This document shows, piece by piece, positions 20,777-60,004 of a stretch of 64,000 bases of DNA. Numbering within the stretch: position 1 is the first letter of the stretch; each line of letters starts with the position of its first letter. The notes below the pieces were generated by a model. The model saw only the letters and a program-made list of their open reading frames with translations. It did no database searches and was not told where the DNA came from. Both the position numbers and the translations under genes were made by a program. Source of the DNA: an uncultured Clostridia bacterium (GTDB taxonomy: Bacteria; Bacillota; Clostridia; Oscillospirales; Oscillospiraceae); assembly GCA_946061515.1 (NCBI GenBank), contig CAMGRL010000001.1, positions 1 through 64,000 of the forward strand. The letters are read 5' to 3'.

Positions 20777-20806
20777 TTGATTTGTAAAGCAGGGACATGC
20801 TATAAT
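20777..20806 (+). promoter_or_regulatory. Promoter of the BMP lipoprotein gene
   Basis: TTGATT and TATAAT are separated by 18 nt. The ~60-nt leader that follows contains a small hairpin (CGGCGTG/CACGCCG). No purine-riboswitch signature was seen. Confidence 0.7.
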
Positions 20807-20873
20807 GCCCATGCGGCGTGAAAAGCACGCCGGAAATTCTGTTGCAAAAAAATATTATTATGGAGGAAAAAAC

Positions 20874-22112
20874 ATGAAAAAGATTCTGGCACTTGTCATG
20901 GCTCTGTGCATGGTCTTTGCCCTCTGCGCCTGCGGCCAGTCCGCAGCTCCCGCTGAGAGCGCAGCTCCCGCTGAGGAGAGCGCCGCTCCTGCTGAAGAGA
21001 GCGCCGAGCCCGTCGCAGCCGAGTACAAGGTGGCAATGATCACCGACTACGGCGACATCACCGACCAGTCCTTTAACCAGACCACCTATGAGGCCTGCAA
21101 GGCATTCTGCGAGGAAAATTCCGTTGAGTTCAAGTACTACAAGCCCGCAGGCGACTCCACCGCTGAGCGTGTTGCTATGGTCGACGCCGCTGTGGCCGAT
21201 GGCTACAATGTCATCGTGATGCCCGGCTATGCATTTGGCGGAACTATCGTGGAAGCTGCGCCTCTCTATCCTGATGTGAAGTTTATTGCTTTGGACGTTG
21301 CAAAGGGAGACCTGCTTGAGGCTGGTGTTGCTGCTAAGGGCGAGTCCTACGACTACAATCCTGACAACTGGGTTCTCGAGGATTACGTTGACATGAGCAA
21401 TGTCTACTGCGCAATTTATCAGGAAGAGCTGTGCGGCTACATGGCCGGTTACGCAGCCGTGAAGCTGGGCTACACCAAGCTGGGCTTCCTGGGCGGCATG
21501 GCTGTTCCCGCTGTTGTCCGCTATGGCTACGGCTTTGTTCAGGGTGCTGACGCCGCTGCCGCTGAGCTGGGCGCAGATGTCTCCATCAACTACGCATACG
21601 GCAACCAGTTCTACGGAGATCCCGACATCACCGCAGCTATGGATACCTGGTATGCAGGTGGCACTGAGGTCGTCTTCGCTTGCGGCGGCGGTATCTACAC
21701 CTCCGCAGCTGAGGCTGCTGCCAAGGTCGACGGCAAGGTCATCGGCGTCGATGTCGACCAGGCTGCTATTATTGACAGCCTTCAGAATACTGAAGGTATG
21801 ACCGTTACCTCTGCAATGAAGGGTCTGTATCCCACTACATATGACACGCTGACCGATGTTGTCGTAAATGGCAACTGGGAAGCATATGTAGGCAAGATTG
21901 AGTCTCTGGGCCTCGTTTCCGGTGACGATCCCACCCTCAACTATGTCCAGATTCCTATGGAATCTACGCAGTGGTCCGACAGCTTCACCCAGGACGACTA
22001 CAAGGCTCTCGTCTCTGCAATGTTCAACGGTGAGATTGTCGTATCCAATGATATCAGTGCAGAGCCCGCAGTCACCACCGTGACCGTCGATTACCAGGGC
22101 AACATTAAGTAA
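20874..22112 (+). CDS. BMP-family nucleoside-binding lipoprotein of an ABC importer
   Basis: This is the substrate-binding lipoprotein of a nucleoside ABC transporter, of the Bmp/Med/NupN family. The signal peptide ends in lipobox LCAC (Cys20). A low-complexity AAPAESAAPAEE linker follows, then the two-lobe periplasmic-binding fold (VAMITDYGDITDQSFNQTTYE, VIVMPGYAFGG, GFLGGMAVPAVVRYGYGFVQGA). I start it at the ATG at 20874, 7 nt after GGAGG; an upstream in-frame ATG at 20805 would precede the signal peptide and lacks a ribosome site. Codon use is less GC-biased than the neighbours, as often in abundant proteins. Confidence 0.93.
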   Translation: MKKILALVMALCMVFALCACGQSAAPAESAAPAEESAAPAEESAEPVAAEYKVAMITDYGDITDQSFNQTTYEACKAFCEENSVEFKYYKPAGDSTAERVAMVDAAVADGYNVIVMPGYAFGGTIVEAAPLYPDVKFIALDVAKGDLLEAGVAAKGESYDYNPDNWVLEDYVDMSNVYCAIYQEELCGYMAGYAAVKLGYTKLGFLGGMAVPAVVRYGYGFVQGADAAAAELGADVSINYAYGNQFYGDPDITAAMDTWYAGGTEVVFACGGGIYTSAAEAAAKVDGKVIGVDVDQAAIIDSLQNTEGMTVTSAMKGLYPTTYDTLTDVVVNGNWEAYVGKIESLGLVSGDDPTLNYVQIPMESTQWSDSFTQDDYKALVSAMFNGEIVVSNDISAEPAVTTVTVDYQGNIK

Positions 22113-22131: not shown

Positions 22132-22157
22132 AAGGACAGGCCGAAAGGCCTGTCCTT
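22132..22157 (+). repeat. First copy of a duplicated terminator hairpin
   Basis: The stem GGACAGGCC-GAAA-GGCCTGTCC lies 19 nt after the lipoprotein stop. An identical hairpin recurs at 22318-22340 with the T-run attached. Together they bracket the 160-nt structured element. Confidence 0.9.
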
Positions 22158-22317
22158 CAGACTGTAGACAAAGCTATCGGCAGTGTATAGAGTTGCATGG
22201 GGAGAGCGCCGAGAGGGGACGGGAGTCCCCTTTCGGCGTTCAATCTATGCTTATTCAGGCGTATTTTCGAATACGCCTGAATAAGTTTTCAAGGCGTCGA
22301 ACGATGTCGACGCCTTG
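22158..22317 (+). ncRNA. 160-nt structured element, copy 1, between duplicated terminator hairpins
   Basis: The sequence begins with a conserved single-stranded-looking block (CAGACTGTAGACAAAGCTAT onward). Three hairpins follow: 22207-22238 (with a GGGGAC/GTCCCC inner stem), 22250-22285 and 22290-22317 (11 perfect pairs). A second copy of exactly the same length lies inverted at 59817-59976. Stems 1 and 2 differ between copies by compensatory changes, so base pairing rather than sequence is conserved. It has no ORF. It separates the lipoprotein gene from the transporter ATPase gene. Calling it an RNA is inference; a DNA-level mobile element is the alternative. Confidence 0.7.
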
Positions 22318-22346
22318 AGGACAGGCCGAAAGGCCTGTCCTTTTTT
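22318..22346 (+). terminator. Terminator after the BMP lipoprotein gene (second hairpin copy)
   Basis: The stem AGGACAGGCC-GAAA-GGCCTGTCCT is followed by TTTTTT. It would reduce transcription from the lipoprotein gene into the transporter genes, which have their own promoter candidate. Confidence 0.85.
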
Positions 22347-22435: not shown

Positions 22436-22470
22436 AAATACATCTATTGTTTAAAGGGAGGTCGGTACGG

Positions 22471-24009
22471 TTGGAGAATCCATATGCAATTGAGATGCTT
22501 CACATTACCAAAAAATTTCCCGGTATCATCGCCAATGACGATATCACCCTGCAGCTGAAAAAAGGCGAAATTCATGCCCTGCTGGGTGAAAACGGCGCGG
22601 GCAAGTCCACCCTGATGAGCGTGCTTTTCGGCCTTTATCAGGCGGAGGAGGGCGTCATCAAAAAGGACGGCCGGGAGGTCCAGATCAAAAACCCCAACGA
22701 CGCCAACGACCTTGGCATAGGCATGGTGCACCAGCATTTCAAGCTGGTGGAGTGCTTTACCGTGCTGGACAACATCATTCTGGGCGTGGAGCCCAACAAG
22801 CACGGATTTTTGCAGAAGCAGGAGGCCCGGGAAAAGGTTCTTGCCCTGTCGGAGCGGTATGGACTGCATGTTGATCCGGACGCCCTGATCGAGGATATCA
22901 CCGTGGGCATGCAGCAGCGTACCGAGATCCTCAAAATGCTGTACCGCGACAATGAGATCCTTATTTTCGACGAGCCTACCGCCGTTCTGACCCCCCAGGA
23001 GATCGACGAGCTGATGCAGATCATGAAAAACCTCTCCGCCGAGGGAAAGAGCATTCTCTTTATCTCCCATAAGCTCAATGAGATCATGGAAGTCTCCGAC
23101 CGGGTAACGGTCCTTCGCAAAGGTAAGTACATAGGCACAGTGGAGACCGCAAAGACCAGCAAGGAGGAGCTGAGCCGCATGATGGTAGGCCGCGACGTGG
23201 AATTTGTGGTCGCCAAGGACGAGGCAAAGCCCGGCGATGTGGTGCTGGATGTGGAGGGCATCACGGTTGCCTCAAAAGTACACAGCAACAATGCGGTGAA
23301 AGACGTCAGCTTCCAGGTTCACGCCGGTGAGATCCTGTGTATTGCCGGTATCGACGGCAACGGCCAGACCGAGCTTGTCTACGGCATTACCGGGCTGGAG
23401 CCGCTGAAAGCCGGAAAGCTCACGCTCTGCGGACAAGATATCACCAAAGCGCCTATCCGCCGCCGATCTGTTATGGGCATGAGCCATATTCCCGAGGACC
23501 GGCATAAGCATGGCCTGGTTCTGGATTACTCCCTTGAATACAACATGGTGCTCCAGCGCTACTTTGAGCCGGAATTCACCAACAAGGCCGGCTTCCTGAA
23601 GCGGCCGCAGATTCGTAAGTACGCCGAGAAATTGATCGACCAGTACGACGTGCGTTCCGGCCAGGGTCCCATCACGGTGGCCCGCAGCATGTCCGGCGGC
23701 AACCAGCAGAAGGCCATTGTGGCCCGTGAGCTGGACAAGGATCCCAAGCTTCTGGTGGCCGTTCAGCCCACCCGAGGCCTGGATGTAGGCGCCATTGAGT
23801 ATATTCATAAACAGCTGGTGGCCCAGCGGGACGCCGGAGGCGCAGTGCTTCTGGTCTCCCTGGAGCTGGACGAGGTCATGAGCCTTTCCGACCGCATCCT
23901 TGTGATGTACGAGGGCGAGATCGTAGGCGAGCTTGACCCGAAAACCACCACCGTGGAAGAGCTTGGTCTGTACATGGCCGGCGCGAAGAGGAAGGAGGCC
24001 GCCCAATGA
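22471..24009 (+). CDS. Nucleoside ABC importer, tandem ATPase subunit (NupO/YufO-like)
   Basis: A double-NBD ATPase of the sugar/nucleoside importer class, 512 aa. NBD1 carries Walker [10 protein letters not shown] and Walker [14 protein letters not shown]2 carries a degenerate Walker A ([10 protein letters not shown]), signature MSGGNQQK and [10 protein letters not shown], as usual for this class. The start is taken as the TTG at 22471 because GGGAGG lies 9 nt upstream; a TTG at 22447 precedes that ribosome site. It overlaps the first permease by 4 nt. Confidence 0.93.
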
Positions 24010-59788: not shown

Positions 59789-59816
59789 ACACCAGGTCTC
59801 AAAAGAAACCTGGTGT
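59789..59816 (-). terminator. Terminator hairpin, distal copy (with T-run)
   Basis: On the minus strand the hairpin ACACCAGGTTTC.../GACCTGGTGT is followed by ATTTTTG. An identical 28-nt hairpin lies at 59977-60004, so the pair brackets the structured element. Confidence 0.85.
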
Positions 59817-59976
59817 CAAGGCGTCGACAAAGTTCGACGCCTTGAAAACTTATACAGGAGTATTAAAAAATACTCCTGTATAAGTATGGATTGAACGCAG
59901 AAAGGGGACTCCCGTCCCCTCTCTGCACTCTCCCCATGCGACTTTATACACTGCCGATAGCTTTGTCTACAGTCTG
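59817..59976 (-). ncRNA. 160-nt structured element, copy 2
   Basis: On the minus strand this copy matches the element at 22158-22317 over its whole length of 160 nt. The first ~32 nt are identical. The three hairpins are conserved, with compensatory changes in stems 1 and 2 and changes confined to the loop in stem 3. It lies downstream of the lipoprotein gene at 60162 and upstream of ppk1, in the same orientation relative to its upstream gene as copy 1. Confidence 0.7.
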
Positions 59977-60004
59977 ACACCAGGTCTCAAAAGAAACCTG
60001 GTGT
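59977..60004 (-). repeat. Terminator hairpin, proximal copy
   Basis: This 28-nt hairpin is identical to 59789-59816 but lacks the T-run. It is unrelated in sequence to the hairpins flanking copy 1 of the element. Confidence 0.88.

Follow-up and report, generated by a model that had tools for sequence, protein, structure and literature searches.

Within the window, which is the whole 64,000-nt stretch of DNA analysed here from an uncultured Clostridia bacterium of the Oscillospiraceae, the end of one gene is separated from the start of the next by a hairpin, a core of 160 nt and the same hairpin once more. The hairpin AGGACAGGCCGAAAGGCCTGTCCTT occupies positions 22,133-22,157 and again 22,318-22,342, with 25 of 25 nt identical, and a run of T (22,341-22,346) follows the right-hand hairpin only. 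The core fills the space between both 25-nt hairpins exactly (22,158-22,317). A second copy of the core, also of 160 nt, is found on the minus strand at 59,817-59,976. It is enclosed by another hairpin, ACACCAGGTCTCAAAAGAAACCTGGTGT in plus-strand letters, which is present at 59,789-59,816 and at 59,977-60,004 with 28 of 28 nt identical. The two cores have an identity of 91%; their hairpins are unrelated. Both arrangements had been noticed in a preliminary description of this DNA, and the positions, the T-run on the right hairpin and the identities of the hairpins and cores were confirmed. The features of the two loci are listed in Table 1.

Table 1. Features of the element and its surroundings in the window.
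Feature	Position	Strand	Remarks
Upstream ORF, 435 aa, resembling a lipoprotein substrate-binding protein	20,805-22,112	+	Resemblance by inspection only; its terminator is the target of copy 1
Left target hairpin, copy 1 (upstream copy of the 25-nt target duplication, 22,133-22,157)	22,132-22,157	+	T-run lost to the insertion; hairpin single in the orthologous site of congeneric genome G012
MITE core of copy 1 (160 nt), with no room for a transposase gene	22,158-22,317	+	17 near-full copies in the assembly; fold z-score -12.3
Left terminal repeat CAGACTGTAGACAAAG	22,158-22,173	+	Same sequence as the end of IS1182-family elements
Internal hairpin A (GGGGACGGGAGTCCCC core)	22,195-22,250	+	Core alignment, folding
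Internal hairpin B, variable in sequence, with compensatory changes	22,251-22,284	+	Core alignment, folding
Right-end hairpin C, including the right terminal repeat (CGATGTCGACGCCTTG here; CTTTGTCGACGCCTTG in most copies of the assembly)	22,290-22,317	+	Copy comparison, alignment, folding
Right target hairpin, copy 1 (downstream copy of the 25-nt duplication)	22,318-22,342	+
T-run on the right hairpin	22,341-22,346	+	A terminator-like hairpin thus still lies downstream of the element
Downstream ORF, 520 aa, ABC-transporter ATPase	22,447-24,009	+	By Walker motif, inspection only
Hairpin of 28 nt at the right end of copy 2	59,789-59,816	-	T-rich minus-strand stretch beyond
MITE core, copy 2, 160 nt	59,817-59,976	-
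Identical 28-nt hairpin at the left end of copy 2	59,977-60,004	-

A search of the assembly from which the window derives (2.22 Mb, 118 contigs, 81% complete) returned 17 copies with 153 or more of the 160 nt, located on 16 contigs, together with fragments. The 16 copies other than copy 1 have 90-96% identity to it and their flanks differ from site to site. The core was matched in seven of 60 genomes searched, this assembly included. A genome of the same genus (G012) yielded 16 matches and G018 yielded eight diverged ones; more were found in G023, G061, G066 and G062. The preliminary proposal that the core is mobile or dispersed and that its flanks are local fits these scattered copies, each of which has private hairpins.

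Hairpin duplication was measured in 41 copies at 40 loci from this assembly and congeneric genomes, a set that stands apart from the partial copies L219 and L221, matches to fewer than about 80 core nucleotides and further unfetched matches in G012 and G018. The score was the length of the duplication less 4 for each mismatch and less offsets, with a threshold of at least 10. By this measure, a duplicated hairpin accompanies 22 of the 41 copies (8/17 in the assembly itself, 9/13 in G012 and 5/11 in the others), compared to 3 of 1640 control pairs made of a left flank from one copy and a right flank from another. The eight scored duplications of the assembly range from 24 to 40 nt. Given the 17 near-full copies and the difference from the control, the observation is not a product of chance, and the duplication of whole hairpins is virtually certain. 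A duplication of 15 nt or longer is present in 24 copies, and its length follows that of the independently detected left hairpin (r = 0.95); the difference between the two lengths is zero in 15 and at most 4 nt in the remainder. At one locus of G012 (C18, L205), two elements form a tandem in the order hairpin, element, hairpin, element, hairpin, from which it is evident that a duplicated hairpin can serve as a target again.

The surroundings of the hairpins were also considered. Of the 22 duplicated targets, 20 are followed by four or more T within 8 nt or preceded by four or more A within 8 nt; the same is true of 20% of randomly chosen positions in the window and of 34% of those that are rich in A+T. 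Among the 22 copies with a scored duplication, the orientation of the element relative to the T-run was not significantly biased (Wilcoxon p = 0.26). Taken together, the base composition and the lack of an orientation bias suggest that the targets resemble intrinsic terminators in either orientation.

Searching 61 genomes of the genus for the surroundings of copy 1 and fetching the best match per genome led to 29 loci, of which the distant ones are putative orthologues. None of the 29 contains the core; in 26, a terminator-like hairpin lies no more than 170 nt beyond the presumed stop codon. The other three are L175 and L181, in which the script misplaced the stop codon and a hairpin is visible, and L202, which begins at a contig end. 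On contig C10 of G012, both flanks of copy 1 are present with a single hairpin and no element between them. The 25 nt of this hairpin are covered by both flank matches, and the intergenic sequence reads GAAGGACAGGCCGAACGGCCTGTCCTTTTTC. In G007, which is one of the 26, the terminator of copy 1 is occupied by a different element of approximately 210 nt in the opposite orientation. The ends of this element, CAAGCTGTCGACAAAG ... TTTGTCTACAGTCTG, are related to those of the 160-nt element and two identical 27-nt hairpins surround it. Thus, one terminator is seen empty in G012, filled by the 160-nt element in the assembly studied here, and filled by another element in G007. The site of copy 2 also has a counterpart in G012, with a single hairpin after the same gene and no element, in which only one flank is orthologous. 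An orthologous locus with a single terminator and no element had been named beforehand as something to look for, and G012:C10 is such a locus. The accompanying idea, that the element entered at a terminator and copied its target, is upheld by this empty site, by the second element at the same terminator in G007 and by the filled and empty plasmid sites of the parent family that are described below.

The left terminal repeat CAGACTGTAGACAAAG matches, in 16 of 16 positions, the ends of elements that encode a transposase of the IS1182 family (NF033551). A scan of genome contigs with this 16-nt left end identified at least 115 stretches, in a collection so large that a 16-mer also matches by chance. 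The motif occurs twice, inverted and about 1.6 kb apart, in L044, L049, L089 and L094. The DNA between the two motifs of L044 encodes a transposase that matches NF033551 with an E-value of 6.7e-137, and its Pfam matches are DDE_Tnp_1_6, DUF772 and DDE_Tnp_1. Among the matches listed, the left end adjoins a hairpin at the 3' foot of that hairpin in 99 of 123 occurrences (those with less than 30 nt of outer flank excluded), and the corresponding figure for random positions in the same loci is 0.85% of 2460. The 28 viral contigs that contain the 16-nt end serve as a negative control for this association, since a hairpin adjoins only 4 of 29 occurrences there. Extended to 28 nt, the left end had no match in the viral contigs.

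An exact duplication of the whole hairpin around an element with a confirmed IS1182 transposase was found in Tetragenococcus (L042, 27 nt), Anaerostipes (L044 and L094, 28 and 29 nt), Enterococcus (L112, 33 nt) and Lacrimispora (L145, 29 nt). An IS1182 element of Sporomusa malonica has a duplicated hairpin of 30 nt, and the IS1182-like copy at L049 has different hairpins on its two sides. Short elements of 163-277 nt that have the left end and no room for a transposase gene were identified at L038, L090, L093, L096, L111, L117 and L129. The element in the window is very probably a miniature inverted-repeat transposable element (MITE) of the IS1182 type.

Within the genus, IS1182 transposases with 60-64% identity to the Anaerostipes protein are encoded in G085, G113, G018, G097, G074 and G030. 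The exact left end of the MITE lies beside a hairpin in the IS1182 copies of G018, G097, G074 and G030, and the end of the G085 element is CAGCCTGTAGACAAAG. At L251 (G016), a congeneric IS1182 element has a duplicated hairpin of approximately 31 nt. For the remaining 16 loci examined alongside it, several of which are cut by contig ends, the script detected no direct repeat of at least 13 nt; some of these loci belong to an IS1182 subgroup with the ends GGGGCTGTCTCAAAA. The assembly studied here, being 81% complete, contains one fragment and a single intact IS1182 element (G000:C16), the latter with other ends, CAGTCTGTCGAAAAAG, and a different hairpin on each side. Among the 17, 12 and 9 loci inspected after searches of 61 and 102 congeneric genomes, matches were to the left end of the MITE only, and no insertion sequence with both of its ends was found. 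Read inward, the right end of the MITE is CAAGGCGTCGACAAAG and the apparent right end in G018 is CAAATTGTCGACAAAC. The two have the inner GACAAA in common without matching in full, and are of the same asymmetric type. The congeneric IS1182 elements are candidate partners of the MITE.

Plasmids of Enterococcus allow the outcome of IS1182 insertion to be compared directly at filled and empty sites. Six IS1182 copies were opened from 1920 matching plasmid records. A near-palindrome of 20-23 nt is duplicated at the ends of five copies, and the sixth (L299) has none. The filled site of pGTC3, with the palindrome AGCAAAGAGAACTTCTTTGCT, has an empty counterpart in pMP8-1 with a flank that is 98% identical. 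For the filled site at L303, there are three similar plasmids without the insertion sequence, each with a single palindrome, and the filled site at L300 corresponds to an empty site in pBP5067_P1 (palindrome AATAGAGCTTTTCAGCTCTATT). Since the palindrome is single in all five empty counterparts of these three filled sites, it is doubled by the insertion of IS1182. The copy L302, on an E. faecium plasmid with an ISEfa7 annotation, lies beside another copy of its own end, and its apparent target is the hairpin just inside that end.

Other elements with related ends were encountered during the searches. Positions 3669-5515 of L122 (Sporomusa malonica DSM 5090, NZ_FWXI01000013.1) hold an element of 1847 nt with IS1182-type ends and an exactly duplicated hairpin of 23 nt. 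It has no recognised transposase and encodes a Thoeris-like pair of genes (PADLOC ThsA1, E-value 8.1e-132; ThsB1, E-value 1.8e-114), a defence system apparently carried as cargo by a cassette that targets terminators. IS1182 transposases are also encoded in this genome. At the other extreme, L040 (3245-3295, 51 nt) and L327 (4099-4145, 47 nt) consist of two inverted ends only, each placed between two different hairpins. A composite of 569 nt (L150, 310-878, on G000:C53) starts with a variant of the MITE left end, contains further repeats and lies between identical hairpins, ACCGGCTGAAACGGGTTTCAGCCGGT.

The core of the MITE is highly structured. As RNA, the core of copy 1 has a predicted folding energy of -92.8 kcal/mol with a z-score of -12.3, which surpasses each of 200 shuffled sequences. 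An alignment of 36 copies (35 distinct), from which those with incomplete ends or a size outside of 150-170 nt were excluded, is consistent with three hairpins and 47 base pairs. Changes on both sides are seen in 16 of the 47 pairs, a figure with no shuffle control behind it that counts sequences and not independent events since the cores are related. The stem of the right-end hairpin differs in sequence between subfamilies and the right terminal repeat lies inside it; only the inner part, GACAAAG, is common to the right and left ends of the MITE. When the window was compared with Rfam, no family attained the gathering threshold.

Three internal hairpins and paired changes in 35 related cores might be expected from a functional RNA or a regulatory element of the 3'-UTR that spread long ago, is now immobile, and is kept for its structure. 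Given that the insertion pattern, the empty sites and the left end are transposon-like and that presence varies between congeners, this explanation is very improbable in its exclusive form; the element could be both a transposon and a functional RNA. The same structured core with its paired changes might also suggest a group IIC intron or another RNA-borne element that makes use of terminators, as terminator hairpins are the sites that group IIC introns use. To our knowledge, introns do not duplicate their target. The absence of an Rfam match, the duplicated target, the left end of a DDE transposon and a length of 160 nt, which cannot hold a reverse transcriptase gene, led to the rejection of this candidate, whose probability is negligible. 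A single-strand element of the IS200/IS605 type would be compatible with hairpins that adjoin both ends. However, the end hairpins of IS200/IS605 elements are carried by the element itself and we know of no target duplication by them. The hairpins described here differ between copies and are single in empty sites, and so belong to the site and not to the element. With site-specific duplicated hairpins, empty sites in which the hairpin was already there, and an IS1182-type end, an IS200/IS605 element is scarcely conceivable and was rejected as well. Both of these groups had already been set aside in the preliminary description, with which the ends, the duplication and the empty sites agree.

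Not every copy conforms. Copies without duplicated flanks had been named in the preliminary description as evidence that would refute the targeting of terminators; 19 of the 41 measured copies are of this kind and count in part against the idea, though 17 of those 19 still adjoin at least one hairpin. No hairpin was detected on either side of L015 and L212 only. Short duplications of 4-9 nt are present at L004, L015, L212, L220 and L227, and at L004, L220 and L227 the repeated segment is the end of the 3' arm. A complete hairpin that differs between the two sides is seen at L006, L010, L014 and L213. Recombination between copies, misassembly at short repeats or another route could be behind such cases. 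The IS1182 copies L148 (G000:C16) and L284 (G085:C52) also have different complete hairpins on each side, like the MITEs L006, L010 and L014. At L003, the stem is duplicated and the loop is not; by eye, the right loop resembles the inverted left loop with one mismatch. L203 and L228 have flanking hairpins with related stems and altered letters or loops, and L228 resembles L003 in having a common stem with different loops. The hairpin is one-sided at L012, L013, L017, L204, L218, L224 and L225. The 17 copies that adjoin a hairpin without a scored duplication appear to be decayed, recombined, or inserted with a duplication of 4-9 nt. The simple insertion model does not account for all of these misfit copies.

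Dispersal, a left end identical to that of IS1182 elements, the targeting of hairpins, the duplication of the whole hairpin and the empty sites are observed. A good case can be made that the element is a non-autonomous MITE that relies on an IS1182 DDE transposase in trans, selects a hairpin and not a sequence, and duplicates that hairpin in its entirety. We infer the following order of steps. An IS1182-family DDE transposase would mobilise the MITE in trans, and its target would be any hairpin-forming palindrome, mostly an intrinsic terminator. The palindrome would be extruded as a cruciform in which the 5' feet of the stems, distant in linear DNA, meet at a four-way junction. The two ends of the element would be joined at these 5' feet, after which gap repair would make each single-stranded hairpin into a full copy, and about 20-40 nt would be duplicated. 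Joining at the 5' feet would therefore leave the hairpin duplicated and joining at the 3' feet would leave it lost. If the ends are joined at the feet of a hairpin, the length of the duplication would be set by the length of the hairpin.

Target duplications made by DDE transposases normally have a fixed stagger or a length set by the transposase. A duplication length that tracks the secondary structure of the target points to a target that is folded DNA at the time of joining. A cruciform with joining at its 5' feet is rather probable as an account of the sequence data. What these data fix are the two joining points at the edges of the palindrome, and a dimeric transposase of the same family could reach them on a double-stranded palindrome through two independent joins, with no extrusion and with the same element. 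All 22 scored duplications start with A and 18 of them finish with T, which could reflect a weak sequence preference at the edges. However, no common stem sequence is apparent by eye, which is hard to square with duplex binding, and passages on IS1272 in PMC5678879 favor structure over sequence. The duplex-bound dimer is on balance unlikely. Returning to joining at the feet of a cruciform, the downstream hairpin retains its T-run, so the terminator would go on working with little cost to the host, and every insertion would turn one target into two.

This rule of insertion could lie behind the repeats with flanking hairpins that are seen at terminators in many Bacillota. It would explain why such elements are tolerated by their hosts, and offers a way in which a pair of defence genes may come to reside at a terminator. 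In its widest form, a DDE transposase would read the shape of a cruciform, and the geometry of the four-way junction would give rise to a duplication of hairpin length. A large group of IS1182 elements and MITEs across the Bacillota would then settle silently behind genes, re-create terminators, double their targets and carry cargo, such as the Thoeris-like pair of Sporomusa, to the same safe sites. The chances that this wider picture is correct are about even.

The preliminary description knew of no described element with such behavior. This view was not sustained: the element is assigned to a family in which the targeting of palindromes and terminators has been described before (passages in PMC5678879 and PMC4923244), and its kind is therefore not unknown. 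With respect to IS1272, passages in PMC5678879 describe a hairpin that is lost; the model figure draws alternatives, and duplication of the whole stem-loop is pathway b, a possibility only. In passages of PMC4923244, TnSha1 is described as partially deleting the hairpin and, with reference to Siguier et al. 2015, some IS1182 members are said to target palindromes. A table in PMC3281130 includes ISPse1, of the IS1182 family, with a direct repeat of 4 nt; judging by that entry, duplication of the whole hairpin is not universal in the family. A table in PMC3852290 includes ISMac2-derived IS1182 MITEs of Methanosarcina of 160 and 169 nt, and the word IS1182 is absent from a review of prokaryotic MITEs (PMC10969869). 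Among the papers listed by full-text searches of the open literature, none appears to report the duplication of a whole terminator by IS1182 elements or by this MITE. The element is a new MITE in a known, little-studied family, and its mode of duplication is given only as a model in the open literature searched. Long duplications are reportedly listed in ISfinder for some IS1182 members.

Among known systems, group IIC introns and IS200/IS605 elements have an association with hairpins in common with the MITE and differ from it in their ends and in target duplication. The ISMac2-derived MITEs of Methanosarcina are also non-autonomous, of the IS1182 family and of similar length; they are archaeal, and hairpin targets are unmentioned in the source table. 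IS1272 and the composite elements TnSha1 and TnSha2 (IS1182 family, Staphylococcus) likewise depend on DDE transposition and, in the passages cited above, aim at inverted repeats or terminator hairpins regardless of sequence. According to the same passages, their hairpin is replaced or partly deleted with no target duplication, whereas the hairpin is kept and doubled by the MITE. Transposition of the hairpin-replacing IS1272 type was rejected for the MITE on the basis of the hairpins duplicated in 22 of 41 congeneric copies and the filled and empty sites of Enterococcus. The closest relatives are the IS1182 transposons (NCBIfam NF033551, of which ISEfa7 is a named member), which have the same 16-nt end, the same position at the foot of a hairpin and the same duplication of the whole hairpin. 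Compared to these, the MITE is reduced to 160 nt, lacks a transposase gene, and has a hairpin with a variable stem as its right end.
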